Positions 2,636 through 62,560 of a stretch of 64,000 nucleotides of DNA are shown here, in pieces; within the stretch, counting starts at the first letter, position 1, and each line of letters opens with the position of its first letter. The notes beneath the pieces were generated by a model, which worked only from the letters and a program-made list of their open reading frames with translations, had not been told where the DNA came from and searched no databases. The translations under genes were made by a program, and so were the position numbers. The stretch is from Bacteroidota bacterium (lineage in GTDB: Bacteria; Bacteroidota; Bacteroidia; 2-12-FULL-35-15): assembly GCA_017303895.1 (NCBI GenBank), contig JAFLBF010000001.1, positions 310,001-374,000 of the forward strand, written 5' to 3'.

Positions 2636-3166
2636 ATGACAGATGAGCAAATAGTACAAGGCTGTATTCAAAAAAATGCGATTGCTCAAAAGCATTTGTA
2701 CGAAAAATTTGTGCGCAAAATGATGGGGGTTTGTTTGCGATATGCTGACAACCATGAAGAAGCAGAAGATGTTCTACAAAATGGATTTGTAAGTGTTTTT
2801 CAAAACATAGAATCTTTTAAAGGAACCGGGTCGCTGGAAGGTTGGATAAGAAAGATCATGGTAAATACAGCACTTACGAATATTAGAAAAAATAAAAAAC
2901 TAAAACAAAACATAGAGCTGGAAAGTGTTGAGTTTATGCTCCCCTCAACTAATCATATCAATGAGAGCTTTGCAGCTAAAGACTTATTAAAAATAATACA
3001 AACGCTCCCAACAGGGTTTAAAACGGTATTTAACCTTTATGCCATTGAAGGCTACTCACACAAAGAAATAGGTGATATGCTGGGTATTTCGGAAGGAACC
3101 TCTAAATCGCAGTATTCAAGGGCAAAAGCTTATTTACAAAAGTTAATACCAATCGACAGAGAATGA
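2636..3166 (+). CDS. ECF-type RNA polymerase sigma factor
   Basis: A 176-residue sigma-70 family protein of the extracytoplasmic-function type. Region 2 (about 20-85) includes the -10 recognition and core-binding helices (AEDVLQNGFVSVFQNIESFKG), and region 4 (about 115-170) has the HTH GYSHKEIGDMLGISEGTSKS. A GTG at 2588 would extend the frame, but a promoter-like CAACTTTG lies at 2604-2611 inside that extension, so I take the ATG at 2636 (MTDEQIVQG). Its last bases overlap the next gene in an ATGA arrangement, so sigma factor and membrane partner are translationally coupled. This order is typical of sigma/anti-sigma pairs in Bacteroidota. Regulon unknown; the downstream surface protein is the obvious candidate target. 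Confidence 0.93.
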   Translation: MTDEQIVQGCIQKNAIAQKHLYEKFVRKMMGVCLRYADNHEEAEDVLQNGFVSVFQNIESFKGTGSLEGWIRKIMVNTALTNIRKNKKLKQNIELESVEFMLPSTNHINESFAAKDLLKIIQTLPTGFKTVFNLYAIEGYSHKEIGDMLGISEGTSKSQYSRAKAYLQKLIPIDRE

Positions 3167-4173
3167 ACATGAAGAAAAACGACAATATAGAGGATCTTTT
3201 CAAGGATTCTTTCGAAAATTTTGAAGCGGATGTAAAGCCTAAAACCTGGGATAATATTCAGGCAGCTCTAAAAGGAGCTGGAATTGGAGTTATCATTAAA
3301 ACGCTGATTAATAAAATTGGAACCAACACCATTATTGCTGTTGTTTCATCGGCAGCTACGGTTGTTGGCACAATCATGATCATGAACTGGACCGGTACGG
3401 GAGCCAAAAAAGAGGTGAATGCTCCAGCGACATCACAAACTGCGAATTTACCTGCTGTTAAAGATGAAAACACTACCATTTCAGGCGCTCAAGAGACCGC
3501 AGCAGATTCCAAAAAAGAGACAAACACACCTGAATCAGCTGTAAATAATAAAACAATAGAGATCAAAGGAAACACAAATAACTCAACTGAAATTGTTGCA
3601 AATCATAAATCAAAAAATGATCTGAAAAATGTGATCGCAGAAATTGAATCTGAGAAGATCGCATCCATCAACTCAACAGCCATTGGCGGTGCTGTTCCTT
3701 TAATTGTCAATCTTTCCAACAAAGGATCAGGAAAGATCAATAAATGGGATTTTGGTGATGGCAAAACGGCTAAAAATATGGCAAATCCTGTCCATGTATA
3801 CGATACCCCCGGCATTTATACAGTTGTTCTTACTTCGACAAGTGTGGATGGTAAAACAAAAAGTGATAGCATTAAGATTGAAGTGTATGGCAACTCTTCT
3901 TTATCAGACATCGCAAGTTCATTTACACCTAACGATGATGGTGATCGCGATTACTTTATCATCAATAGCGAAAACATTAAAAATATGAACGCAACTATTC
4001 TAGAAGGGAATGGCACAATTGTGTATAGCTACAAAGGCGTGGAAATCAAATGGGATGGCAGAAATAAAAAAGGAGAAAAAGTAAAAGAAGGCACTTATTA
4101 CTATATCATTGATGCAGAAGGAATTGACGGAAAAAAAATTGAAAAGAAAGGCAGCATAAAACTTACGAGATAA
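3163..4173 (+). CDS. Membrane-anchored sigma-factor partner with PKD and CHU_C-like domains
   Basis: A 336-residue protein starting within the sigma factor's stop codon. Residues 1-50 are polar and presumably cytoplasmic (DLFKDSFENFEADVKPKTWD resembles the short N-terminal segment of Bacteroidota anti-sigma-like partners). One membrane segment lies at about 55-75 (NTIIAVVSSAATVVGTIMIM). A Thr/Lys/Asn-rich linker follows, then a PKD domain (about 165-245, NKWDFGDGKTAKNMANPVHV and PGIYTVVLTST). The C-terminus (about 250-336) resembles the gliding-motility/type B T9SS sorting domain: SSFTPNDDGDRDYFII, IKWDGRNKKGEKVKEGTYYY, and a final EKKGSIKLTR. The neighbouring 1256-residue protein ends in a matching domain. 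Role inferred: transmembrane regulator of the sigma factor. No cleavable signal peptide is seen, which is odd for a protein with a sorting-type domain. Confidence 0.8.
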   Translation: MNMKKNDNIEDLFKDSFENFEADVKPKTWDNIQAALKGAGIGVIIKTLINKIGTNTIIAVVSSAATVVGTIMIMNWTGTGAKKEVNAPATSQTANLPAVKDENTTISGAQETAADSKKETNTPESAVNNKTIEIKGNTNNSTEIVANHKSKNDLKNVIAEIESEKIASINSTAIGGAVPLIVNLSNKGSGKINKWDFGDGKTAKNMANPVHVYDTPGIYTVVLTSTSVDGKTKSDSIKIEVYGNSSLSDIASSFTPNDDGDRDYFIINSENIKNMNATILEGNGTIVYSYKGVEIKWDGRNKKGEKVKEGTYYYIIDAEGIDGKKIEKKGSIKLTR

Positions 4174-4185
4174 TCAATAATATCG

Positions 4186-4193
4186 TATTTTTG
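4186..4193 (+). promoter_or_regulatory. Bacteroidota -7 element before the type B T9SS protein
   Basis: TATTTTTG matches the TAnnTTTG -7 consensus and lies 31 nt upstream of the ATG at 4225. It suggests that the large surface-protein gene can be transcribed separately from the sigma/partner pair. Confidence 0.5.
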
Positions 4194-4224
4194 CGCTGAA
4201 TATTTTCGAAAAACAAGACGACAG

Positions 4225-7200
4225 ATGAAGAAATTATTACTACTATTTGCATTTAGCATTTCTACATACACAATACAAGCACAAGCAATCGATGCTGAAC
4301 CTGAGGTTTCAACCGTTTGTGGGGGTGGATCAGCAAACTTAACAGCAACCGTTATTCCTGCAGGTAGCCCTGGAGCACCGGGGAGTTTACCTACTACTGA
4401 TTATGCGATCAGCAGCATCCCTTTTTCTACTGACCCGCTTAATGCCGGAACACCGGTTTCGCTTACTGATGATAGTCAAACAGGGTTGGTTATTCCAATC
4501 GGCTTTACCTTTTGTTATTTCGGCAACCAGTATACTGTTGCAAATATTGGATCAAACAATTGGTTAAGTTTTAGTGCAGGGCAATCAAATACTTACACCC
4601 CACAAGCAATTCCAACAGCAACTAACTTCCCTGTAAACGCTATTTTGGGGCCATTTCAGGACATTAACCCCGGAGCCGGGGGAACAGTAATGTATGCAAC
4701 ATATGGTACTGCACCCTTCAGAAGGTTTGTTGTTTCATGGAACAATGTGCCTATGTTCTCTTGTACTGGACAATTATATTCAAGCCAGATCATTATTTAC
4801 GAAACGACTAATATTATTGAAACCCATATCGCTAACAAGTCTGTTTGTGCCGGGTGGGTTGGTGGAAGAGCTACTCATGGTCTACAAAATACTACAGGAA
4901 CTTTCGCAGTTGTTGTTCCGGGAAGAAATAATACACAATGGACAGCTAGTAATGAAGGCACAAGATTCACACCAAATGGCACCGCAACCTATACTATCAA
5001 TTGGTACATTCTACCGGCAAACACATTGATAGGTACTGGACCATCCATAACTGTTACTCCAGTAACATCACCACAATATTACTATGCTGAAGTTGTGGGA
5101 CCAAACGGCTGCAATCCTACAGGAAGCGGTGTAAACAATACTGACACTGTTGTTGTCTTCTCCAGCTCTTTAGCTGTTGATGCTGGACCATATACTGCTA
5201 TCTGCGAAAACACATCAACAACATTGAATGCATTTGCACCAGGTGGCATAACTTATACTTGGTCACCGGCCACAGGTTTGAGTAATCCTACCATTCCGAA
5301 TCCTGTGGCTAGTCCAACTACTACTACTACCTATACGGTAAATATTACGGATGCATTGGGCTGTAGTGGCATTGATACCGTTACAATTGCTGTTAACCCT
5401 GCCCCATTTGTGGATGCAGGATTTGGAGCAGCGATCTGTTTAGGTGACAATATTCAATTAAGCGGTAATGGCGCAGGGACGTTTGCATGGTCACCTTCTG
5501 CATCTTTGGATAATGCAACAATATCTACACCTACAGCAACGCCTAACGCTACTACAACTTATTCACTAACCATTACAGATGGTATTGGTTGTACTGCAAC
5601 GGATACCGCTACAGTATTTATCTCTAATGGCAATGCAGATGCCGGTCCAACGGCCGCTATATGTGATGGAACAAGTACCACATTGAATGCGACAGGCGGA
5701 ACAACTTATACCTGGGTTGCTTCTTCAACATTAAGTGCTACCAATATCGCCAACCCTACAGCCAACCCTACATCAACAACTACTTATACCGTAACAATTG
5801 ATGATAGCAATACCGGATGTATCACAACGGATACAGTTACTGTTATTGTCAATTCAATTCCGGTAGCGGATGCGGGTAGTAACACATCATATTGTATTGG
5901 AGGAAGCACTGTTCTGAATGCCTCAGGGGGCAATACTTACAGCTGGTTGCCTTCTACTGCACTTAGCAGTCCAACAGTAGCTAATCCTACTGCTAATCCT
6001 ACAATTACAACTACCTATACTGTTACTGTTTCAAGCGCAGCAGGATGTTCTTCTACTGATCTTGTAACGGTTACTGTAAATCAACTTCCTACCGTAGATG
6101 CAGGAAATGATATCAGTATTTGTCCTGGTGGCAGTGCTAATTTAAATGTAATTGGCGCACAAAATTATGTGTGGTCACCGGCTGCGAGTTTATCAAATAA
6201 TACCATTCAAAATCCTACAGCAACACCAAGTGTAGCAACAACCTATACAGTTGTGGGAACCGATTCAAATGGTTGTAGCTCAACCGATTCAGTGAATGTA
6301 AGTTTGAACGGACTCACGATTGCAACTACAGCAAGTGCTACAACGATCTGTGCAGGGAACAGCAGTAACTTAAGCGTATCTGGCGCTACTAGTTATGTAT
6401 GGACACCGGCCAGTTCTTTATCAAATGCCACATCCGCTAATCCTGTTGCTACACCGGCCACAACAACAACTTACACCGTTATTGGAAATGATGCGACATC
6501 AGGTTGTGCAGATACTACTACTGTTACAATCACAGTTAATAGCTTGCCAACTGTAAATGCAGGAGCAACATTATTGATATGTGCAGGCTCAACAGCTAAC
6601 TTATCGGCTACAGGTGCAACGAATTATTCCTGGACACCAACAACATCCTTGAACAATCCAAACATTCCGAATCCAACTTCTACAGCAACAACAACTACAC
6701 TATACACAGTTACGGGAACAGATCTGAACGGTTGTTCAGCATCGGATACTGTTTCTGTAATTGTTAATCCTGTTCCAAATGCAAATGCAGGAAATAATAC
6801 TAGTATTTGTTTAGGTTCAAGTACAACATTAAATGCAACAGGTGGAACAACTTATAGCTGGTCGCCTTCTACAGGATTAAGTAACCCGGCTATTGCAAAT
6901 CCTATCGCAACGCCAACCACAACAACAACGTATACCGTTACTGTTACATCCAATTTCTGTAGTGCTACTGCACAAGTAACTGTATCCGTAAATCCTGTTC
7001 CAACAGCTGGAGCAAGCACTACCAATGCAAACATTTGTGCCGGAGCTTCTACACAATTAACTGCTACAGGTGGTGGTAATTATGCATGGATACCAACAAC
7101 CGGTTTAAGCAACCCGGCTATCGCAAATCCAATTGCATCGCCTTCTACCACTACAACATACAGCGTTATTGTTTCAACCGTAACAGGTTGTGCAGATACA

Positions 7201-7995
7201 GCAACTGTTACTATAAATGTGACCAATGCAATGAGTATTGCCGCATCTACTGTTACTCCTGAAACATGTGGCGACATAGATGGTACAATTACTCCCGGAG
7301 CGATCACCGGAGGAAACACTCCCTACTCGTATTCATTAAACGGTGGAGCTTCCCAATCATCATCGACATTTAACGGATTGGCTGCCGGCACATATACTGT
7401 TACAGTTACTGATGCTACCGGCTGTACATCTTCTACAACGGTTAGCGTTAATCAAGTTTTAGGTGTAAATGCCTCTTTCACTGCCAATCCTCCTACAGGA
7501 GTATATCCTTTGAACGTAGCATTTAGCAATTCAACAAGCGGAGCAACAAACTACATCTGGGATTTTGATAACGGATCAGGATCAACATTAACTAATCCAA
7601 GTACAGTATATCCTACAGTTGGACAATATACTGTAACATTGATTGCTTACAATAATAATCCTGCTTGTGCCGATACGGCAACATTTACGATCGATGTATT
7701 CGATGAAGTATTATTAGCTATACCAAATGTATTTACACCAAATGGTGATGGAAGCAATGATTTCTTCTTTGTAAGAACAAGTGGTGTAACCGAAATTAGC
7801 GGAACCATCTTTAATCGTTGGGGCAAGAAAATAACCGAATGGAATGGAACACCATCTTCTACTTTAGGATGGGATGGAAAGATCAATGGAAGTGTGGCTG
7901 CTGATGGCGCATATTACTACATTATCAAAGCAACCGGGGCAGACGGAAAAGACTATGAAGAAAAAGGATATTTACAATTGATCAATGGAAACTAA
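4225..7995 (+). CDS. Large type B T9SS surface protein with nine Ig/PKD-like repeats
   Basis: A 1256-residue secreted protein. A signal peptide (MKKLLLLFAFSISTYTIQAQ) is followed by a beta-rich N-terminal domain (about 30-270). Next come nine repeats of about 75-80 residues, each with a pattern of D/N-AG, I-C-x-G, T/S-L-N-A-T-G-G, Y-x-W-x-P, L-S-N, N-P-T-A-x-P and TTTYTVT. One SprB-like repeat follows (about 1015-1080, ETCGDIDG and GLAAGTYTVTVTDATGC), then one PKD domain (YIWDFDNGSGS). The C-terminal CHU_C/type B sorting domain contains VFTPNGDGSNDFFF, FNRWGKKI, GWDGKINGS and YYYIIKATG. Such proteins are moved by the type IX system to the cell surface, where they serve adhesion or gliding. 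Ligand unknown. It follows the sigma/partner pair by 51 nt and carries its own promoter-like element. Confidence 0.9.
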   Translation: MKKLLLLFAFSISTYTIQAQAIDAEPEVSTVCGGGSANLTATVIPAGSPGAPGSLPTTDYAISSIPFSTDPLNAGTPVSLTDDSQTGLVIPIGFTFCYFGNQYTVANIGSNNWLSFSAGQSNTYTPQAIPTATNFPVNAILGPFQDINPGAGGTVMYATYGTAPFRRFVVSWNNVPMFSCTGQLYSSQIIIYETTNIIETHIANKSVCAGWVGGRATHGLQNTTGTFAVVVPGRNNTQWTASNEGTRFTPNGTATYTINWYILPANTLIGTGPSITVTPVTSPQYYYAEVVGPNGCNPTGSGVNNTDTVVVFSSSLAVDAGPYTAICENTSTTLNAFAPGGITYTWSPATGLSNPTIPNPVASPTTTTTYTVNITDALGCSGIDTVTIAVNPAPFVDAGFGAAICLGDNIQLSGNGAGTFAWSPSASLDNATISTPTATPNATTTYSLTITDGIGCTATDTATVFISNGNADAGPTAAICDGTSTTLNATGGTTYTWVASSTLSATNIANPTANPTSTTTYTVTIDDSNTGCITTDTVTVIVNSIPVADAGSNTSYCIGGSTVLNASGGNTYSWLPSTALSSPTVANPTANPTITTTYTVTVSSAAGCSSTDLVTVTVNQLPTVDAGNDISICPGGSANLNVIGAQNYVWSPAASLSNNTIQNPTATPSVATTYTVVGTDSNGCSSTDSVNVSLNGLTIATTASATTICAGNSSNLSVSGATSYVWTPASSLSNATSANPVATPATTTTYTVIGNDATSGCADTTTVTITVNSLPTVNAGATLLICAGSTANLSATGATNYSWTPTTSLNNPNIPNPTSTATTTTLYTVTGTDLNGCSASDTVSVIVNPVPNANAGNNTSICLGSSTTLNATGGTTYSWSPSTGLSNPAIANPIATPTTTTTYTVTVTSNFCSATAQVTVSVNPVPTAGASTTNANICAGASTQLTATGGGNYAWIPTTGLSNPAIANPIASPSTTTTYSVIVSTVTGCADTATVTINVTNAMSIAASTVTPETCGDIDGTITPGAITGGNTPYSYSLNGGASQSSSTFNGLAAGTYTVTVTDATGCTSSTTVSVNQVLGVNASFTANPPTGVYPLNVAFSNSTSGATNYIWDFDNGSGSTLTNPSTVYPTVGQYTVTLIAYNNNPACADTATFTIDVFDEVLLAIPNVFTPNGDGSNDFFFVRTSGVTEISGTIFNRWGKKITEWNGTPSSTLGWDGKINGSVAADGAYYYIIKATGADGKDYEEKGYLQLINGN

Positions 7996-53621: not shown

Positions 53622-53955
53622 AATCGTTAATGGAAATTTTCTTAAAAATAAAATAATTACACTCGCAATGAATCAGGGCCAAGAATTGATGATGGTGCAA
53701 CAACGTCTCAATGTAATTGAGATGCAGGTGAAGGAGGCTCTTAGCCTTTTAAATGCGCTGGTGGTGGAACGTAATACTATCGGTGAGTGGATAGATGAAG
53801 AAAGTGTAATGCGTATAACCGGATTAAGTAAATCCAGTTTATATGAATTGCGAAGGAAGAATAGAATTACATCATCTACCATCAGCGGGAAGGCGAAATT
53901 TTACAAGCTTAAAGATTTTGAGAAAATTTTAACAAAAAATGAATATCTAAGATGA
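53614..53955 (+). CDS. HTH_17/excisionase-type DNA-binding protein
   Basis: A 113-residue protein. The C-terminal half has the MerR-like helix-turn-helix of excisionases: IGEWIDEESVMRITGLSKSS and LYELRRKNRITSSTISGKAKF. The N-terminal half is a predicted coiled coil (MMVQQRLNVIEMQVKEALSL). Start at 53614 overlaps the previous stop; the Met at 53668 (MNQGQELMMVQQ) is an alternative. The stop overlaps the integrase ATG (ATGA), so the three genes are coupled. It probably sets the direction of recombination. Confidence 0.82.
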   Translation: MNKIVNGNFLKNKIITLAMNQGQELMMVQQRLNVIEMQVKEALSLLNALVVERNTIGEWIDEESVMRITGLSKSSLYELRRKNRITSSTISGKAKFYKLKDFEKILTKNEYLR

Positions 53956-55244
53956 AAGTAAAACTTGGCGAACGCCCACCGTATTCGGTCAAATTCTTTT
54001 TGAGTAACTATACGCGAGAAAAAAGAGCGGAACACACTGTTCATTGCCGTATTTGCATGAATAGAGTTAAGTCAGAATTTTCACTCTTTGTAAATGTGAA
54101 GCCCGAAGATTGGGATCATGTGAATGGCCGATTCTTACCCAACACAAAACATCTATCACATTTGAACTTTAAACTTTCAGAAATTGAGGGAAGGATTGAA
54201 GAGCATTACCAGGAGTTAAAATATTCCGGTATGGCGATTTCCGCAAAACTGATTCGGAACAAAATGCTTGGGAAGGGGCCTACGCTTTCAGCCACAACGC
54301 TTTTGAAGTTCTTTGACCAATATATCACTGAGATAAGTCACAAAACGGAGGAATATGAAGCACCTACCGTTCAGCATTATCGCGCAACACGTGACCATTT
54401 AATTAAGTTTTTTAAATCGGTTGGTATTACGGACATGCCTCTTAAGTCGCTTAACCGGAATATGCTTGACAGATTTGAAACATATTTATTGAGTACACAT
54501 AATGACCAATTAGGACGACCAATGAAACGCAACACCGCTAACCGCTACTTGATTAAACTGAAGGTGGTGGTGAATAATGCCCTCCGAAAAGAACTCATTG
54601 CAAAAAATCCTTTTGTTGGATTCAGAATAAAATATGTGATTACTAAAAAGGTTCACCTCACCACTGATGAAATTAAACTTATCAAAAAACACAGCCTTGG
54701 TGAAAATCCTGCACTTATCAGAGTGAGGGATGTATTCATGTTCTCCGTTTACACCGGTCTTAGATTTACCGATGCGCTGAATTTGAAATCACAATCTATC
54801 AGTATGCACGAGGACGGTAACTATTGGATAACGCTTGACCAGGCAAAGACGGATGATCCTTTGCACATCCCCTTACTTTTAGACGCGGAGAAAATTTACT
54901 TGAAGTACATGAACCGACCGGAATTAAAAGGGCATGTATTGCCACGCCTTTCTAATCAGAAAGTAAATCTTAACCTCAAACTGATAGGTGAACTTGTTGG
55001 CATCCAAAAAAAATTGACGCACCATGTGGCACGCCATACTTTCGCAACGACTATCATGCTTGAGCAGGGGATTGATATAAAGGCGGTGAGCAAATTATTG
55101 GGGCATACGAATTTGAAAACAACCGAAATTTACGCTCAGGTAACACGCAAACAACTATCGGATGTAGCCGCAAGGTTAAACAAGAAAAGTGCTCAGGTGT
55201 CGCTTGCGCAGCAAGTAATCAAAGAAACAGTAAATCAATCTTAG
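53952..55244 (+). CDS. Tyrosine recombinase (site-specific integrase)
   Basis: A 430-residue integrase of the Bacteroidota transposon/ICE type. N-terminal arm-binding region (about 1-95), SAM-like core-binding domain (about 105-210, TVQHYRATRDHLIKFFKSVG), catalytic domain (about 220-400). Catalytic residues: Arg271 in YTGLRFTDAL, His358 and Arg361 in HHVARHTFATTI, His385 in LLGHTNLKTTEIY, and Tyr394. All are present, so it is likely active. It is the last gene of the coupled cassette. The presumed attachment site is the tRNA-like remnant at 48.12 kb or another site not in the window. Confidence 0.94.
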   Translation: MKVKLGERPPYSVKFFLSNYTREKRAEHTVHCRICMNRVKSEFSLFVNVKPEDWDHVNGRFLPNTKHLSHLNFKLSEIEGRIEEHYQELKYSGMAISAKLIRNKMLGKGPTLSATTLLKFFDQYITEISHKTEEYEAPTVQHYRATRDHLIKFFKSVGITDMPLKSLNRNMLDRFETYLLSTHNDQLGRPMKRNTANRYLIKLKVVVNNALRKELIAKNPFVGFRIKYVITKKVHLTTDEIKLIKKHSLGENPALIRVRDVFMFSVYTGLRFTDALNLKSQSISMHEDGNYWITLDQAKTDDPLHIPLLLDAEKIYLKYMNRPELKGHVLPRLSNQKVNLNLKLIGELVGIQKKLTHHVARHTFATTIMLEQGIDIKAVSKLLGHTNLKTTEIYAQVTRKQLSDVAARLNKKSAQVSLAQQVIKETVNQS

Positions 55245-55272
55245 AATTTAATGCGCAAGCACCCGAGAGAAT

Positions 55273-55716
55273 TTAAAGGTATTTCAAAAGACCAAATGCG
55301 TTAAGCAGCTTCCAAAGAAACGACTTACAGTTGTTGTTGCACACCTTTGCCTTCGGCTCCAGTTTCCATGATTTTTTACCGACAACAGTAATACCGTAGT
55401 ATTTGTAGTTAAGGTAATTTTTGTAACAGTTCAGAGCTGTTATCATAGCTTTAAATGTTCCACTATTGAATTTCATTTTTTCTGCTCCCTCACTTACCAT
55501 GAGGTTAATTAAGGTTGCAATATCTTTTGGTGTATAAGCGAAGAATTCTTTCTCTGATGTACAGAAAAGCAATACCACCTTTTTTACTTGCGAAACATAG
55601 CAATCAGCAGTGTCATTACTAATATTGTGACCAATTGCACCATTCGTCATTTGCTTCTTAAAATCCTTTAATGAAATTTTTACTTGAGTTGTTTGAGTTG
55701 AGATTAAATTTTTCAT
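55273..55716 (-). CDS. Hypothetical protein, SAM-like helical fold
   Basis: A 147-residue protein. Residues about 30-110 (NDTADCYVSQVKKVVLLFCT, YTPKDIATLINLMVSEGAEK, SGTFKAMITALNCYKNYLNY) resemble the four-helix core-binding domain of tyrosine recombinases, but there is no catalytic domain. The C-terminus is Lys/Cys-rich (VCNNNCKSFLWKLLNAFGLL). It could be a DNA-binding relic or an accessory factor. It is convergent with the integrase gene. Confidence 0.5.
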   Translation of the reverse strand: MKNLISTQTTQVKISLKDFKKQMTNGAIGHNISNDTADCYVSQVKKVVLLFCTSEKEFFAYTPKDIATLINLMVSEGAEKMKFNSGTFKAMITALNCYKNYLNYKYYGITVVGKKSWKLEPKAKVCNNNCKSFLWKLLNAFGLLKYL

Positions 55717-55743
55717 AATATTTTGTTTTAATGTTTTTAATAA

Positions 55744-55767
55744 GCCGGGAGCGAAGTTGCCCCCGGC
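55744..55767 (-). terminator. Hairpin between the methyltransferase gene and the 147-residue gene
   Basis: GCCGGGAGC pairs with GCCCCCGGC (one mismatch or wobble). The T-run on the minus strand is weak (TTATT), so termination is not certain. Confidence 0.4.
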
Positions 55768-55776
55768 AGTTAGTTT

Positions 55777-56718
55777 TTAAAGTTTATCTCCCACTTGAGT
55801 GAGTATGTGTTCTACAATTGCCTTCATAAATTCAGGCGGAATGGTATTACCACATAATTTATGCGCATCCTTATCCTTTACATCTGCCGGAATCTCATAC
55901 CAATCAGGGAATGTTGAGAACTTTAAATCCTGCTTAATGCTTAGCTTAGATTCTTGCCCGTCTTCATAAGTAATTACTTCGCCTGATGCAGTGCGCGTGG
56001 TCATATATTGCTCGTTAGATTTAATTGTCTTTTTAGACTGGCCAACCTTCACACCAATTATCTCAGGTGTAACATCAACGATTCTTAAACCATTCACATT
56101 CTCATACTGAGGTTTTGGTGGTGTGGGCACAACACCAAACTCTTTTAAATAACCTATAAAAATAAAACGGTAACGTTTCTGAGGTGTGTTGTAATTCAAC
56201 GCTAACAGTTTAAAACATCTTACCTCATAGTGTGGCCCAAGCTTTTCCATTATGCGCAACTTGATTTCATTGAAGATGGCAATATTACGATCATCATCCA
56301 TCCCAGGTACGTTCTCAATGATGAAACATTTTGGAAGTACTCCTGAGATAAGATCGATGCTGTGCAGGAACAAAAGATTGCGCGGATCAAGCGGATCAAT
56401 TTTCCCTTTGGCGACTGAAAACCCTTGGCAGGGTGGAGAAAGCAGCATGATAGACAACTCTTTCGGCATCATTAGTATTCTACGTAAGATGTCATCTGCT
56501 TTAATGGCTAAGATGTCAGCCAACCAGAAAGGGACATAACGCTCACCTTTAAAGTTGTGCTCAAAAGTTCTCTGAGCAACTGACCAGTTGTCAATCGCAA
56601 GCAACTCTTTAATGTAGTTGTAAAGTAGTCCGAGCGTACCACCACCGGCACCGCTGAATAAGGTAATCGCTGTGATCACCTTATTTAAAGTTGGATGTAT
56701 GTGATTATTATTTTCCAT
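55777..56718 (-). CDS. DNA (cytosine-5)-methyltransferase
   Basis: A 313-residue m5C methyltransferase. Motif I LFSGAGGGTLGLLYN, catalytic motif IV PPCQG with Cys97 (MLLSPPCQGFSVAKG), motif VI ENVPG (135-139), motif VIII QKRYR, a target-recognition region at about 195-280, motif X KLCGNTIPPEFMKAI. All catalytic elements are present. No cognate endonuclease is seen next to it, so it looks like an orphan methyltransferase, as on many mobile elements. It overlaps the end of the ParB-like gene by 11 bp, so they are co-translated. Confidence 0.93.
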   Translation of the reverse strand: MENNNHIHPTLNKVITAITLFSGAGGGTLGLLYNYIKELLAIDNWSVAQRTFEHNFKGERYVPFWLADILAIKADDILRRILMMPKELSIMLLSPPCQGFSVAKGKIDPLDPRNLLFLHSIDLISGVLPKCFIIENVPGMDDDRNIAIFNEIKLRIMEKLGPHYEVRCFKLLALNYNTPQKRYRFIFIGYLKEFGVVPTPPKPQYENVNGLRIVDVTPEIIGVKVGQSKKTIKSNEQYMTTRTASGEVITYEDGQESKLSIKQDLKFSTFPDWYEIPADVKDKDAHKLCGNTIPPEFMKAIVEHILTQVGDKL

Positions 56719-57400
56719 GGCTTTCGTTTTTAAAGATTAGATTTCCGTTCCCATCATGATCGATTCTTTTTGGTGTGCATCCACAGTATTTACAATCCCT
56801 GATTTCAGTAAGATCGATTTCTTCTACTTCATTCTCATGTTTAGGCTTCTCTGCTTTGCACGCTTCAAAGGCTTCGTGTAAACTATTGATAGTACCATTA
56901 TCAACTAAAGTGAGAAAGCCGATGTTTTTATCCCCGATTGTCTCAATCTTATGTACGGTGCTTTCTGTTGTACCTACAGCAGATGCAATCCTTTGGCGTG
57001 TGCTCATTTTTTCCTGTTCAGTTAAACCGCTTTGCAAGTCAGTCCTGGTTCCAGATTTCTTAAGCCATAATTCTTTCAGCACTTTTATCTCACGGAAAAT
57101 CTCAGTCGTTGATTTTTGACGTTGAGTATTAGAGTACACAATAAAGGAAGGTTCAGATTCCTTTGGAATATCAACCACTTCAACTTCTATCTCTGTAAAA
57201 GCAAGCTGTTTCAGAGCAAGAATTCTACGCCAACCTGAAAGAACCTCCATTTCTTGATTTACAATTGGATTGTATCGCAATCCGATTTCACTGATGCTTT
57301 CTGCTAAACCATCTACATTACTTACCTGGTAAGTTTCGATGTTCGTAGGGTGTGCGCGCAGAAGATCTAACCCTACTGTTTTAATGTTTTTATTCTTCAT
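56708..57400 (-). CDS. ParB/Spo0J-like nuclease-domain protein
   Basis: A 230-residue protein. The ParB N-terminal domain includes GLDLLRAHPTNIETYQ, ISEIGLRYNPIVN (box I region) and EVLSGWRRILALKQ (R-box). An HTH follows (TRQRIASAVGTTESTVHKIE). A C-terminal Cys/His cluster (DCKYCGCTPKRIDHDGNG) could bind metal. A GTG at 57433 extends the frame, but the ATG at 57400 starts right before the conserved region. The gene is not next to a parA gene. Its 3' end overlaps the methyltransferase, suggesting a joint DNA-recognition or modification role. Confidence 0.85.
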   Translation of the reverse strand: MKNKNIKTVGLDLLRAHPTNIETYQVSNVDGLAESISEIGLRYNPIVNQEMEVLSGWRRILALKQLAFTEIEVEVVDIPKESEPSFIVYSNTQRQKSTTEIFREIKVLKELWLKKSGTRTDLQSGLTEQEKMSTRQRIASAVGTTESTVHKIETIGDKNIGFLTLVDNGTINSLHEAFEACKAEKPKHENEVEEIDLTEIRDCKYCGCTPKRIDHDGNGNLIFKNESHGK

Positions 57401-57464
57401 ATAGGGTTTTATGAAGAAATTAGGGGTACTCACTTCTACACTTAAAAGTGAGGAGTAACATAGA

Positions 57465-57489
57465 AAAGCCCCAGTATTTACTGGGGCTT
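57465..57489. terminator. Terminator between the 444-residue and ParB-like genes
   Basis: AAGCCCCAGTA pairs with TACTGGGGCTT around a short loop. On the minus strand it ends transcription from the 444-residue gene. Confidence 0.8.
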
Positions 57490-57527
57490 ACAGATGAAAT
57501 GATAATTTACGTATTAAAAAGTGAGGA

Positions 57528-58862
57528 CTATTGTTGATGCGAATGTGACTCAAGGGTTTTCTGAACTATTTTGTCTATTGCTTTCCTCGTTAGTTCACCA
57601 GGGTATTTGCCGTTGCGGATTTTGTTGTAACTCGACCTGAGCACATCGTGTGCCTTAGTATCTCTATCAATTTCTTCGTTATCTAATGTAAAGCTATTTA
57701 CAATTCTTGGGAATGGCTGGCTCGGATATTCCAATATTTTATACCTCTCAAAAAGTAAGTACATAAAATAGAGCATAGGTGCTTTTGCTCTTGATCCTAC
57801 CCAATTTACTTTGCGTTTCACAGGTGTACCGGTAAAAAGTTTAGCAAATTGAAGCGCTGTTGTTTGACTATCTATAAATTTTGAAGCGCTTAATCGTGCT
57901 GCTAAGTCTTCAAAAAAATCTTGCCCGAATTTGTCAAACGCCTTTAGAGTTCGCTCTTCGCTTTTATTTGCACCTCCCTGCAAATTATTGGAAAAGAATA
58001 AAAGTTGATTCTCGAAAGCTTGCTTTTGCTTAATAAGACGAAGCATTTCAATGTCTGGCGTATTATCAACAAGAGAGTGCAAAATATCGTATTCCTTTTT
58101 GTCATAAAGCTTTTCCAATTCTTTTTCCGAGTATGATTTTATATCAGAAACTAAATTTTGAAATCCGCTTAGGTTAATCCTATCAGCAATAGGAGTTGAC
58201 TCAATGGTGGCATCCAAATTACTCTGTACAGTCATTTTGGTTGAAACTGTAGAAGGAAAATTCTTACTGTGCCGATCTTCAATCTCTAATCGAACTCTAT
58301 TGAGCAATGTTTCTAATGTATCATAATTGATAATTATTTCCTGGTCAACATATTGAAGTTTAGCATAGGAATCTATTGATAGCTTAAGTTCTTTCAAATA
58401 ATCACTTAAAGCTTCCTCGGCATCACACACTATTGAATCTATAAATTTCACAGTTATAGCAGCCGACTCGTTAACCTGTTGCTGAATAAAAGAAATTAAG
58501 GAGTTACATTCATTGCAGCACAAAATAAAATTTCTAAAGACCAAATCTACATCTGTATCCTTTAGCAGGTCCGGGTTGGACTGCAACAAGTTTTTTAGGC
58601 CACCCCTAACGCTTGCTTCTTTACTTAACACAAAATCTTTTATTGTTATATCTTTCGAAAGGCGTAATGATTCAAGTTGTTTCGTTGTGCTTTTGAAATT
58701 TTCTGAAAGATAATGATGCTTTTCTTTTTCACCTAAAATGAGTAGAAGCTGTTCACTCACATTTTTATCATAATCCGGTAACATAGAATACAATGTTATT
58801 AACTCGCTTTCATAATGTGCGAGTAAACTTCTTATGAGTGTAGTTTCATTGATATTCATCAT
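57528..58862 (-). CDS. Hypothetical protein, 444 residues, helical
   Basis: No family recognised. Almost wholly helical and soluble, with coiled-coil character at about 20-75 and 120-200 (DAEEALSDYLKELKLSIDSY). The C-terminal about 125 residues (VNWVGSRAKAPMLYFMYLLF, NEEIDRDTKAHDVLRSSYNK) have a W-x-G-S, then helices, then a short basic segment, reminiscent of the C-terminal module in other Bacteroidota element proteins such as the one at 49237. Monocistronic with terminator. Its length and codon use support a real gene; its function is unknown. Confidence 0.65.
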   Translation of the reverse strand: MMNINETTLIRSLLAHYESELITLYSMLPDYDKNVSEQLLLILGEKEKHHYLSENFKSTTKQLESLRLSKDITIKDFVLSKEASVRGGLKNLLQSNPDLLKDTDVDLVFRNFILCCNECNSLISFIQQQVNESAAITVKFIDSIVCDAEEALSDYLKELKLSIDSYAKLQYVDQEIIINYDTLETLLNRVRLEIEDRHSKNFPSTVSTKMTVQSNLDATIESTPIADRINLSGFQNLVSDIKSYSEKELEKLYDKKEYDILHSLVDNTPDIEMLRLIKQKQAFENQLLFFSNNLQGGANKSEERTLKAFDKFGQDFFEDLAARLSASKFIDSQTTALQFAKLFTGTPVKRKVNWVGSRAKAPMLYFMYLLFERYKILEYPSQPFPRIVNSFTLDNEEIDRDTKAHDVLRSSYNKIRNGKYPGELTRKAIDKIVQKTLESHSHQQ

Positions 58863-58929
58863 CCCAAAACTATCACAATACTATAAGAAATGCAACACTA
58901 TTTTCCATTGAAAAGGAGTTTCCGTTAGT

Positions 58930-58953
58930 AACTTCCTAACTTCCTATCTTCCT
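58930..58953 (+). repeat. Three tandem 8-bp repeats before the 214-residue gene
   Basis: AACTTCCT, AACTTCCT and ATCTTCCT follow one another without gap. A separate perfect inverted repeat TTTCCGC/GCGGAAA lies at 59005-59011 and 59021-59027. Both are in the 215-nt region between divergent genes and may be regulatory. Confidence 0.55.
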
Positions 58954-59077
58954 ATAGGCTGATAACCATAGCGTTTTGTTTTCCGTTGGTGTTTTTAGCT
59001 CTTTTTTCCGCAGTCGTGTCGCGGAAATCTTCTACACTCGAAATAGACAAATAAGTATAACCTTAAAACAATTTACA

Positions 59078-59722
59078 ATGAAAACAGAAGAAGCTAAATC
59101 AAAAATTCTTGAAATGCTTAACTCAAAAGATGGGTTTACCGTGACTGCCCAAGAAATTAACTACGCAACAAAAGGAAAGTTACCATTCGTACAAATTTAT
59201 TCCATCATGGCTGGCATGATAAAAGCCGGTACGGTGAAGCTAAATGAATCAGAAGGAAAGAAGTCCTACACACTAATCAGTGACGGAAAAAATGAGCTAC
59301 TTGAAAAGAAAAAAGAAAACGATGATTCCACCGAAACAAAAAGTGATTCTAAAAAATCAACTGTAGTTAAAATAAACCAAGGTGGCCGCGATCTCACCAA
59401 GTACAAATTTTTGGGAAAGGAATACAACAAATCAAGACTGGCGCTCGCAATCATAACACAAGTTGCGAAGGACAAACGATTAAGCTTAAAGGGTGCGCTT
59501 GAACTTTTTGACCCTGAAAACAACGTGATTCCACCTTATGGCCTTATCAAACCGATTGCAGAAGCAAAGAAGCTTAGTAAAGAACGAGCTCGTTTTTTTC
59601 TGAAACCTGGTGAGGAAGTGAAATTAAGAGATGGTGTTGTAGCTATCAGCAATCAGTTTACAAAAGAGCGCATAGAAAAGGTAATTTCTGTAGCGAGAAA
59701 ATTGAAATACTCTATCAAATAG
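59078..59722 (+). CDS. Hypothetical protein with N-terminal winged-helix-like region
   Basis: A 214-residue basic protein. The ATG at 59078 (MKTEEAKSKILEMLNS) is chosen over an upstream TTG start, which would add 34 residues of unlikely composition. Residues 1-65 (FTVTAQEINYATKGKLPFVQ, IYSIMAGMIKAGTVKL) look like a winged helix with a charged linker after it (KKKENDDSTETKSDSKKSTV). A C-terminal domain (about 100-214) contains LTKYKFLGKEYNKSRLALAI and FTKERIEKVISVARKLKYS. It could be a chromatin- or replication-associated protein. Terminator follows. Confidence 0.6.
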   Translation: MKTEEAKSKILEMLNSKDGFTVTAQEINYATKGKLPFVQIYSIMAGMIKAGTVKLNESEGKKSYTLISDGKNELLEKKKENDDSTETKSDSKKSTVVKINQGGRDLTKYKFLGKEYNKSRLALAIITQVAKDKRLSLKGALELFDPENNVIPPYGLIKPIAEAKKLSKERARFFLKPGEEVKLRDGVVAISNQFTKERIEKVISVARKLKYSIK

Positions 59723-59746
59723 TTTCTTGTTGCTTTTGCAATGGTT

Positions 59747-59780
59747 AGAGAGGCTACCGCCATGGGGCCTCTTTTTCTTT
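59747..59780 (+). terminator. Terminator after the 214-residue gene
   Basis: AGAGGC (59749-59754) pairs with GCCTCT (59767-59772), then TTTTTCTTT. Confidence 0.7.
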
Positions 59781-59793
59781 ATATTACATTTTC

Positions 59794-59801
59794 TAAATTT
59801 G
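59794..59801 (+). promoter_or_regulatory. -7 element 4 nt before the 205-residue gene
   Basis: TAAATTTG matches TAnnTTTG exactly and ends 4 nt before the ATG at 59806, just after a terminator. It is a fourth likely leaderless start, here inside the accessory region. Confidence 0.5.
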
Positions 59802-59805
59802 CATT

Positions 59806-60423
59806 ATGAATGATTTCAATAGCGAGTACCATAATAATTTCGATACTGCAATTCAGCTAACAAAAAAAGCGGGATACTCAATTCCATTTGAAACACATTT
59901 ATTAAAGAAGAACACTCAGTTACTTAATCATTTAACGCTTGAAGGAGTTTACTCTATATTCCAAAATGAATTTGGAAAGCCAAACGGTAATTTTAATTTA
60001 CGCGAAATAAAAGGGCAATGTATTAAAGTGCATTCGGAAATGCAGTCTATGTTGTTAAGTAAATTGAATTTGCAAACTATCATCACGGTTGGATATGTGA
60101 ATTACAACGGACAAGACATGTTCAAGTTCGAAACCATCGGCAATCACAACATCAGAAGGGTAAATCAGGATGGTAAAACAGAACTCGACATACATGTTTG
60201 GCTCACACTACCTTCCTATGAGGTACTTGATTTCACATTTATAGCTCACTTAGCCTACGTAAATTATCCTCGGGAGAAAAAAATTCTGCTTGAGGATGCG
60301 CCAACGTTTATTTTTAACTCCGGAAGTGCCCAAAAAGTATTTGAAAGCGAGAATTGCCGGTATTTTCCTAAGTTCGTAGGAAAGGATATTCTCATTCAGA
60401 ACGGATTTATCCAAATTCGATAG
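59806..60423 (+). CDS. Hypothetical protein, 205 residues
   Basis: No family recognised. A soluble alpha/beta protein (MNDFNSEYHNNFDTAIQLTK at the start, then EIKGQCIKVHSEMQSMLLSK, LDIHVWLTLPSYEVLDFTFI and VNYPREKKILLEDAPTFIFN). The arrangement KGQC...H...Y-x-N/D...DIHVWL...YEVLDFT is compatible with a papain-like (transglutaminase-type) Cys-His-Asp enzyme, but I cannot confirm it. The promoter is leaderless-type. Expressed alone, upstream of the type I R-M operon. Confidence 0.55.
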   Translation: MNDFNSEYHNNFDTAIQLTKKAGYSIPFETHLLKKNTQLLNHLTLEGVYSIFQNEFGKPNGNFNLREIKGQCIKVHSEMQSMLLSKLNLQTIITVGYVNYNGQDMFKFETIGNHNIRRVNQDGKTELDIHVWLTLPSYEVLDFTFIAHLAYVNYPREKKILLEDAPTFIFNSGSAQKVFESENCRYFPKFVGKDILIQNGFIQIR

Positions 60424-60601
60424 TTTTTCCTGGTCGCATTAGGAGAGCCCGAGTACTTCAACCCTTAATCTTATACTTCCAAGCCATTTAATCGCTCCTG
60501 CGGGCTCAGGGAGAGCTCAGATAATCAATCGTTTTGTACAGTTGCTCTCAAAATCTTACATCGGGATACCGAATGTTGAAATTTAGAGTACTTTTTCTTT
60601 G

Positions 60602-60660
60602 GGAAAACTCCTAAAAGTTTCCATATTTGGACTAATTCTGTCAAACAAAAAAATGTCAAA
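60602..60660 (+). promoter_or_regulatory. Candidate operator before the XRE-type regulator
   Basis: An imperfect inverted repeat GGAAAACT (60602-60609) / AAGTTTCC (60615-60622) and two copies of TGTCAAA (60639-60645 and 60654-60660, the second ending in the start codon) lie in front of the regulator gene. Such sites are typical for autoregulated controller proteins of R-M systems. Binding is inferred. Confidence 0.4.
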
Positions 60661-60944
60661 TGAATAACTTGGGAGAAATAATTCGCAATGAGCGAGAAAA
60701 AAAGGGGTGGTTATTACGTCATGTTGGTTCAGAGCTCGATGTTGATCAGGCTTTGATTAGCAAATTTGAACGTGGTGAGCGCTGTCCGACTAAAGAACAG
60801 GTTGTAAAACTTGCTAAGCTTTATCGAATAAACGAAAACGATTTGATGACTGCTTGGCTTGCGGACAAAATATCATTAGAGGTACAAGATGAAAAAATGG
60901 CTTTGCGTGCTGTAAAGTTATTTGAAGAAAAATTAAAGGCTTAA
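60660..60944 (+). CDS. XRE-family transcriptional regulator of the R-M operon
   Basis: A 94-residue protein with an N-terminal lambda-repressor-like HTH: MNNLGEIIRNEREKKGWLLR, VGSELDVDQALISKFERGER, TKEQVVKLAKLYRINENDLM. The remaining C-terminal part (about 65-94) is a helix. It starts the type I R-M operon, 5 nt before hsdM, in the position of a controller (C) protein that times restriction after entry into a new host. The operator-like repeats upstream agree with that. Confidence 0.88.
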   Translation: MNNLGEIIRNEREKKGWLLRHVGSELDVDQALISKFERGERCPTKEQVVKLAKLYRINENDLMTAWLADKISLEVQDEKMALRAVKLFEEKLKA

Positions 60945-60949
60945 TATTT

Positions 60950-62560
60950 ATGGCTAAGAAGAATAAAGAGATTACTAAACCAAAAGCCGATATAGATTTT
61001 GAAAAAGATTTATGGGGTGTGGCAAATGAATTGCGCGGTGCGGTTGCAGAGAATCAGTATAAAGACTACGTTCTTTCGCTTATCTTTTTAAAGCACATGA
61101 GCGAACGATATGAAGTTCGCAGAGATGAATTGTTGCAATTAGTAAGCGAACCTAAATCAAATTACTACACAAAGAACAAAAAAGAAATTGAAGCGATTGT
61201 AAGCGATCCGGACGAATATCTTTCCAAGAACACATACATCATCCCTATTGAGGCTACTTGGCAATATTTGCAGGATAATGCTGAGCAGGATGATATTAAA
61301 GTAAAGGTGGATGATGCGTTTGAACTATTGGAGAATACAATATCACAATATCGCCCGGAGTTAAAAGGCATCTTACCAAGAATATTTGTAAAGAGTCAGT
61401 TAACTGCTAAACAAACCACCGGGCTCATTAACTTATTTTCTAATCAGAAATTTTCTGAAAAGTATAATCCTGAAAGTGATGTATTAGGTCGCATCTATGA
61501 ATACTACATTGGACGTTTTGCAATTGCCGAGGGCTCCGGTGCCGGACAATTCTTTACACCGGGTTGCATTGTGCGCCTATTAGTAGAAATGCTTGAACCC
61601 TTAAAAGGAAAGATTGCCGATTTAGCTTGTGGTAGTGGTGGAATGTTTGTACAGTCTATGAAATTCATCAATGCACATGGAGGAACAAAGAAAGATATTG
61701 CTATTTACGGACAAGAACGTTACGATGGTACATTGCGTTTAGCTAAGATGAACCTTGCTTTACGTGATTTAAACTTTCAATTAGAACTTGGTGATTCATT
61801 GTTGCAAGATAAGTTGGCCGACCTCAAAGCTGATTACATTATCATGAACCCTCCGTTTAACGTGAGCCAGTGGCACCCGGAAGATTTACCGGAGAACGAC
61901 CCACGTTTATTCAAAATACCAGAATCTAACGATCCTGTTGTAACTGATGGTAATGCTAACTACATGTGGTTTCAAACCGTGTGGTCGCACTTAAGCAATA
62001 ATGGTAATGCAGGTATTGTTATGGCGAATGGTGCCATGACGTCCAATAATAAAGGGGAGCGAAACGTGCGTGAATACATGATAAATCAAAGCATGATTGA
62101 TTGCATTGTTCGTTTACCAGATAAATTATTTCTAACAACAGGGATACCGGCCTGCCTTTTCTTTTTAAGCAAAACGCGCAAGGGGAATAAGCAACATCGT
62201 GAGCGCAAGGATGAAATACTATTCATTGATGCAAGTAAATTGGGTGAAATGGTGAATCGTAAACTTCGGGTATTAACTGATGGTGAAATTGAAAGGATTG
62301 CCGGCACTTATCATGAATGGAGAAACATAAAAGGGAAATACGAAGATATAAAAGCTTATTGCAAATCAGCATCAATTGAAGATGTGATTAAACAAGATTA
62401 CAAATTAACACCAGGTATTTATGTGGGTAACGAAGATGCAGAAATTGATGAAGTCCCTTTTGAAGAAAGAATGAACGCTCTAAAAAAAATGTTGAATGAA
62501 CAGTTTACAAAAAGCAACGAGATGCAACAAAGAATAGAAATGAATCTGTCAAAACTATAA
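60950..62560 (+). CDS. hsdM: Type I restriction-modification system, methyltransferase subunit
   Basis: A 536-residue N6-adenine methyltransferase subunit. The N-terminal helical domain (about 15-165) has FEKDLWGVANELRGAVAENQ. The catalytic domain has AGQFFTPGCIVRLLVEML, motif I ADLACGSGGMFVQ (about 222-234), QERYDGTLRLAKMNLALR, and the catalytic NPPF at 300-303 (MNPPFNVSQW). TTGIPACLFFLSK and RKLRVLTDGEIERI follow as in HsdM. The length is standard. The enzyme methylates adenine in the bipartite site recognised by HsdS. Confidence 0.96.
   Translation: MAKKNKEITKPKADIDFEKDLWGVANELRGAVAENQYKDYVLSLIFLKHMSERYEVRRDELLQLVSEPKSNYYTKNKKEIEAIVSDPDEYLSKNTYIIPIEATWQYLQDNAEQDDIKVKVDDAFELLENTISQYRPELKGILPRIFVKSQLTAKQTTGLINLFSNQKFSEKYNPESDVLGRIYEYYIGRFAIAEGSGAGQFFTPGCIVRLLVEMLEPLKGKIADLACGSGGMFVQSMKFINAHGGTKKDIAIYGQERYDGTLRLAKMNLALRDLNFQLELGDSLLQDKLADLKADYIIMNPPFNVSQWHPEDLPENDPRLFKIPESNDPVVTDGNANYMWFQTVWSHLSNNGNAGIVMANGAMTSNNKGERNVREYMINQSMIDCIVRLPDKLFLTTGIPACLFFLSKTRKGNKQHRERKDEILFIDASKLGEMVNRKLRVLTDGEIERIAGTYHEWRNIKGKYEDIKAYCKSASIEDVIKQDYKLTPGIYVGNEDAEIDEVPFEERMNALKKMLNEQFTKSNEMQQRIEMNLSKL

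Follow-up and report, generated by a model that had tools for sequence, protein, structure and literature searches.

Why would a membrane-anchored protein encoded together with an extracytoplasmic function (ECF) sigma factor end in a domain that resembles the sorting signal of type IX secretion system (T9SS) cargo? The question is raised by positions 2636-7995 of a 64,000-nucleotide stretch of Bacteroidota DNA (hereafter the window; assembly GCA_017303895.1, contig JAFLBF010000001.1, positions 310,001 to 374,000 of the forward strand), where three genes follow each other on the + strand. The first encodes a sigma factor of 176 residues (2636-3166, ATG at 2636), the second a predicted Dma-type, single-pass anti-sigma-like protein of 336 residues, here called the partner (3163-4173, overlapping the sigma stop by 4 nt), and the third, after a gap of 51 nt, a surface protein of 1256 residues (4225-7995) with Ig_7 repeats and a PKD domain, whose type B (CHU_C) sorting domain has an intact NRWG motif. 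The T9SS-linked routes that we found in the literature, PorXY-SigP and the SM6 promoters, both act on machinery genes. The pair described here is a candidate for a route by which Bacteroidota could adjust the output of large T9SS cargo (adhesins, enzymes, surface proteins) to what the machine can handle, and it comes with a named sigma factor, a promoter motif, identified target genes and a putative sensor domain that has lost one motif. We regard it as about an even chance that the pair is an ECF sigma/anti-sigma switch of the Dma (dual membrane-spanning anti-sigma) type for type IX cargo, the CHU_C-like end of which would dock on the T9SS.

The sigma factor and its membrane-anchored partner

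The window sigma factor carries sigma-70 regions 2 and 4 only (Sigma70_r2, 56 bits, and Sigma70_r4_2, 50 bits, in Pfam; TIGR02937, 94.8 bits) and is thus of the ECF type. In the partner, the cytoplasmic residues 1-40 (3163-3282, + strand) contain helices at 10-18 and 26-38 and the pattern DLFK-x-SFENFE...W-x-NI, which is the best conserved part of the N-terminus, and we infer that they bind the sigma factor. They are followed on the same strand by a single transmembrane helix at about residues 53-72 (3319-3378; hydropathy of the partners examined, with a model helix at 54-64), a disordered periplasmic tether at about residues 77-168 (3391-3666), which differs in length and aligns poorly among orthologs, a PKD domain at residues 169-242 (3667-3888; PKD_4, 49.8 bits) and, at the extreme C-terminus, a CHU_C-like domain at residues 250-336 (3910-4170; PF13585, 60.2 bits over residues 250-334). 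The AlphaFold2 model agrees with short N-terminal helices, a long low-confidence stretch (predicted local distance difference test score, pLDDT, <50 over residues 48-149) and two confidently predicted beta domains, the first matching the collagenase PKD domain 2y72 (Z 12.6) and the second (pLDDT ~90) resembling immunoglobulin/fibronectin type III (Ig/Fn3)-type domains of streptococcal serine proteases and the C-terminal domain of PorU (Z 8.7). The gene order, coordinates and reading frames given in a first-pass annotation of the window, and its description of a single-pass protein with PKD and CHU_C domains, were confirmed (60.2 bits against a Pfam cutoff of 27), as was its statement that no cleavable signal peptide is present, since about 52 residues, many of them charged, precede the hydrophobic helix in all orthologs of the genus.

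Orthologs of the partner were found in most of the 36 genomes of the window genus, full-length ones with identities of 39-60% being common, and each of the genus loci inspected has a sigma gene immediately 5' of the partner. The positions conserved among them are F13, K14, F17, E21, W29 and N31, K51 and G53 at the membrane, and the PKD and CHU_C domains, while the linker is variable. A profile of the N-terminal domain, searched against 395 genomes sampled from the class, matched 99, and the 60 loci fetched, all from other families of the class, had an ECF sigma gene directly upstream of the partner without exception (60/60), so that the arrangement, which might have been peculiar to one genome, is not. 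The supposition that such a domain is abnormal for anti-sigma-like proteins is not supported either: 47 of the 60 partners end in CHU_C and 13 do not, most of the latter having an outer-membrane beta-barrel instead, so that CHU_C prevails among the fetched members of the family. In all CHU_C-type partners the domain is the very C-terminus (0-13 residues beyond it), and in these other families the tether has a median length of 140 aa, long enough to reach the outer membrane. When six of the 13 remaining partners were scanned, four scored above the PF13568 outer-membrane barrel cutoff and two gave weaker matches to barrel models, the barrels matching PF13568/PF13505; one protein of the 13 (246 aa) is apparently too short for a barrel. 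The anti-sigma-like domain seems to occur twice in tandem at the N-terminus of two partners, and in five loci of one family a second, more distant ECF sigma gene begins at most ~120 nt after the partner, which thereby lies between two sigma genes.

The N-termini of the window-genus partners and of the beta-barrel partners are homologous (hhalign 98.8%, E 6.6e-17), and the barrel partners found here have the whole Dma architecture. As outlined in PMC13088901, Dma proteins consist of an N-terminal anti-sigma domain, a transmembrane helix, a disordered tether and a C-terminal barrel, and are encoded next to an ECF21 sigma factor. They were shown genetically to restrain their sigma factor, loss of Dma2 activating vesiculation through its sigma (PMC13088901). 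The window pair shares with them the adjoining sigma and anti-sigma genes, the N-terminal domain, the one transmembrane helix and long disordered tether (the latter two judged by hydropathy and the model) and the presence of a C-terminal domain. It differs in that the outer-membrane beta-barrel is replaced by PKD and a CHU_C domain without NRWG, and in its putative regulon: genes for vesiculation and polysaccharide utilisation in the case of Dma, T9SS cargo genes here. Because of the homology to barrel partners of Dma architecture and the sigma gene found upstream in every fetched locus, the partner is very probably an anti-sigma factor. By comparison with the published Dma architecture, the most fitting reading of the window protein is a putative Dma-type anti-sigma in which the barrel has been swapped for a type IX signal-like domain.

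On a tree of the sigma factors, CHU_C and other partners are intermingled in a way that forces at least three changes, several rows being long-branched, and this argues that the C-terminal module has been exchanged several times. A single swap was rejected with the same caution about long branches, as the two kinds of partner do not form two clades. If this is true, the newly described Dma architecture has repeatedly exchanged its outer-membrane end. CHU_C and type IX secretion are not mentioned in the Dma2 paper (PMC13088901). A search of genome contigs with the window partner as query gave no match, and the same contigs queried with partners of one other family returned 22 named loci, mostly of Flavobacteriales and including Vicingaceae.

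Promoter motif and putative regulon

An ECF-type promoter precedes the sigma gene, with TGCAACC (2589-2595) and CATCT (2612-2616) separated by 16 nt (2589-2616, + strand). Each of the 34 genus operons aligned has TGCAACC-N16-CRTCT or a close variant ahead of the sigma gene, and its distance from the ATG varies, which argues that it is not coding; a GTG start at 2588, giving a sigma factor of 192 aa, was rejected on the same grounds, as this stretch is the promoter and its spacing to the ATG varies between species. The motif also stands ahead of many sigma genes in other families. Exact matches in the 36 genus genomes numbered 273 against 13 for a reversed-pattern control, and the spacer is strict, a length of N17 giving 2 matches in seven genomes compared to ~100 with N16. 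Four related genomes (clade G011, G024, G032 and G034) have ~20 sites each, compared to 2-10 in most other genomes of the genus.

The genes behind the motif were surveyed at 59 non-sigma sites in five genus genomes, a non-random choice in which strong-looking sites were preferred, and 7 of these run off the sequence. A T9SS substrate, defined as a match to TIGR04183, TIGR04131 or PF13585 in the first or second gene after the site, was present behind 25 of the 52 resolvable sites (13 of type A and 12 of type B, four of the latter calls resting on coordinate matching). For comparison, such cargo makes up ~6% of the genes of the window's own genome (145 type A plus ~40 type B domains over an assumed 3,200 genes), and against a background of 10% the excess behind motif sites has p ~3e-12. 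The targets in the own genome include a type B protein of 1415 aa and a type A protein of 852 aa, one type B target is followed by a PorP/SprF-family gene (152 bits), and in three other families the motif again stands ahead of CHU_C proteins, as detected with a local CHU_C profile. The link between the window-type sigma factor and T9SS cargo is in our view well supported, with the qualification that genomes within the genus are not independent and that the regulon is predicted from motif and gene content. The first-pass annotation had proposed from sequence and gene order that cargo transcription is coupled to secretion; the presence of the sigma factor's own promoter motif before many T9SS cargo genes adds evidence beyond gene order.

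Other genes behind the motif include housekeeping genes for a ClpC-like ATPase, DNA topoisomerase I and a protein of 146 aa that by eye resembles the GatB/YqeY family (five loci in total), the topoisomerase recurring in two families, in the second of which it was identified by eye. In four genus genomes the motif is followed by the gene of a small conserved membrane protein (..GPSLGNLNKN..IAWFSTSLAKKRKI..).

Two known systems also connect ECF sigma factors or their promoters to type IX secretion. In Porphyromonas gingivalis, the ECF sigma factor SigP is tied to the T9SS through PorXY and PorA (PMC7712824, PMC4800418), but it controls machinery genes via a two-component system; its likeness to the window sigma is one of role. 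PorA has a type IX C-terminal domain and influences the sigma pathway; it is, however, surface-exposed and acts upstream, and is not an inner-membrane anti-sigma (PMC7712824, PMC4800418). The SM6 promoters of Flavobacterium psychrophilum are likewise of ECF type, with CGT in the -10 box, and precede GldN, PorU and one sigma/anti-sigma pair (PMC9723704); the T9SS targets listed there are machinery and not cargo, and the comparison with the window motif covers the -10 box. An anti-sigma factor with a sorting-signal-like domain was not found in the literature searched, including the PorXY-SigP/PorA accounts and the available part of the SM6 account.

Possible roles of the CHU_C-like domain

The partner and the surface protein score similarly with PF13585 (60.2 and 63.5 bits, cutoff 27 bits), both contain PKD_4 and they share 35% identity over PKD and CHU_C (BLASTP, E 7e-24), whereas with TIGR04131 (cutoff 35) the surface protein is a clear match (49) and the partner is marginally above the cutoff (35.4). 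The shared pattern that had been pointed out between the two proteins omitted NRWG, the one motif that is not shared: where cargo has FNRWG the window partner has LEGNG, with EGNG at residues 281-284 (4003-4014, + strand). In a comparison of 81 partners with 54 cargo CHU_C domains (29 from the own genome and 25 from related loci), RWG was present in 47 of the cargo domains and in none of the partners, and the W and R columns were the two most diverged between the groups; kinship of the sequences overstates the p-value of this contrast, although the loss spans many families. The same 81 partners retain the hallmarks FTPNGDGxND, WDG and GxY. Type B signals have five conserved motifs, each of which is required for secretion (PMC12618676), and NRWG presumably lies within one of these, which is our reading, as the text of PMC12618676 prints no motifs. 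Substrates with type B signals that use PorP/SprF shuttles likewise carry a C-terminal CHU_C domain of the same Pfam family, but they possess a signal peptide and, in most cases, NRWG in intact form, neither of which is found in the partner (PMC9143113, PMC12618676). The loss of RWG in all partners counts against an exportable copy of the signal and is compatible with a mimic that is not exported. Judged by its residues, the window domain is not a normal secretion signal, and the partner, which has lost NRWG and has no cleavable signal peptide, is probably not ordinary T9SS cargo.

How might such a domain act? The N-terminal ~40 residues of the partner would hold the sigma factor at the inner membrane, and the flexible tether would carry PKD and the CHU_C-like domain across the periplasm, where the latter could dock, unexported, on an outer-membrane part of the T9SS, most likely a PorP/SprF-like shuttle or the translocon. 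Docking would compete with real cargo, so that its state, set by free versus cargo-filled shuttles, would decide whether the sigma factor is held or released, and the released sigma would act at TGCAACC-N16-CRTCT promoters, transcribing both its own operon and a number of T9SS cargo genes. It is plausible that the CHU_C-like domain is a sensor of T9SS or shuttle occupancy, while the docking on the T9SS, the rivalry with cargo, the way in which the feedback runs and the release step are conjecture. The look-alike of the signal in the pair, together with the sigma site before many T9SS cargo genes, suggests that bacteria with the pair match cargo production to the state of the secretion machine. 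More tentatively, and with somewhat less confidence than for the window pair itself, we propose a widespread class of Bacteroidota anti-sigma factors that would read T9SS state through a non-exportable copy of the sorting signal and match cargo transcription to free secretion or shuttle capacity.

A similar logic is known from flagella, where sigma28 transcribes late genes of the machine and its anti-sigma factor FlgM has features in common with the proteins that this machine exports. FlgM is, however, soluble and exported, in contrast to the membrane-anchored and predicted non-exported window partner.

Several observations weigh against a cargo switch that docks on the T9SS. Genomes beyond the genus and one other family have just one or a few copies of the motif, roughly half of the sites stand before genes other than T9SS cargo (ClpC, TopA and others), and the motif might also be used by other ECF sigma factors of these genomes. 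A separate sigma-A-like promoter may serve the adjacent cargo gene, TATTTTTG (4186-4193, + strand), which fits the Bacteroidota sigma-A box TAnnTTTG (consensus from PMC9723704), a match that alone is no proof of function. SprA_N was detected in 383 of the 395 class genomes and is thus nearly universal, so that co-occurrence of the T9SS with the pair is uninformative. One genome with an N-terminal-domain match had no SprA_N, but 53 CHU_C domains above the cutoff, for which reason the absence is probably an assembly gap. Finally, since secretion needs all five type B motifs (PMC12618676), a domain without NRWG may lack any contact with the T9SS.

This last point leads to the strongest alternative, which we consider rather unlikely: the pair would control T9SS cargo, and the CHU_C-like domain would just be a periplasmic Ig-like sensor or spacer, responding for instance to the state of the outer membrane or cell wall. 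It would explain why NRWG, presumably needed for type B secretion, is lost in every partner compared (PMC12618676), it agrees with a CHU_C-like fold that is a common Ig/Fn3 sandwich, and the beta-barrel versions of the family function without a T9SS signal (PMC13088901). On the other hand, the domain is kept at the extreme C-terminus with the other hallmarks of a sorting signal across many families, and the cargo genes that adjoin the pair or belong to its putative regulon encode type IX substrates.

Considerably less probable is that the regulon belongs to another ECF sigma factor of like specificity and that the pair chiefly autoregulates its own operon as a local switch. Several other families with one or few motif sites besides that of the sigma gene itself, and the second sigma gene after the partner in one family, would agree with this; yet in the genus no stretch before the window-type sigma gene is better conserved than the motif, the motif is found again in other families, and its enrichment over the control is small in eight genomes in which no pair was detected (~15 versus 6 matches) compared to nine genomes with the pair (~45 versus 0). 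Least probable of all, by a small step, is export in the manner of FlgM, with the T9SS taking up the C-terminal domain and pulling or cleavage of the anchored protein freeing the sigma factor, since the CHU_C score above the Pfam cutoff, the marginal TIGR04131 match and a tether whose length suffices to span the periplasm (median 140 aa in other families) are opposed by the loss of NRWG in 81/81 partners and by the lack of a cleavable signal peptide, which leaves the partner anchored in the inner membrane.

The adjacent surface protein and further observations

A special tie of the surface protein to the partner is not supported. Its CHU_C domain ranks only third among the 29 CHU_C domains of the own genome when compared with the partner, and all 29 are less similar to it than the orthologous partners of sister species. 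Within the genus, roughly every second locus with sufficient flanking sequence has a large CHU_C gene after the pair; outside the genus, such a gene is next in line after 16 of the 47 CHU_C-type partners compared to none of the 13 others (p = 0.013). The pairing with a large CHU_C gene pointed out earlier recurs, but a particular relationship to the adjacent protein was rejected, as its domain is merely the third best and about half of the genus has no big CHU_C gene at this place; the adjacent cargo gene is a variable neighbour and not the closest homolog.

The clade with many motif sites (G011, G024, G032 and G034; loci L078, L085, L087 and L081) has no adjacent cargo gene, and a hairpin-like sequence lies 3' of the partner. 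In about ten genus genomes a conserved stretch follows the partner stop, GGGGCATCGGGAAG(A/G)... (T)GGTCCAACGTCA(G/A)AC, also written as GGGGCATCGGGAAG...CCAACGTCAGAC (loci L064, L067, L068, L071, L075, L077 and L082-L084), and a search of Rfam returned no family matching this element.

Upstream of the pair and divergent from it lies a gene which we take to be that of RNase R (rnr-like; 181-2517, - strand), and RNase R is the divergent neighbour in nearly all genus loci inspected. Near the other end of the window (53952-62560), integrase-like, DNA methyltransferase-like and type I restriction-modification-like genes, recognised by eye, are clustered and possibly form a mobile or defence island.

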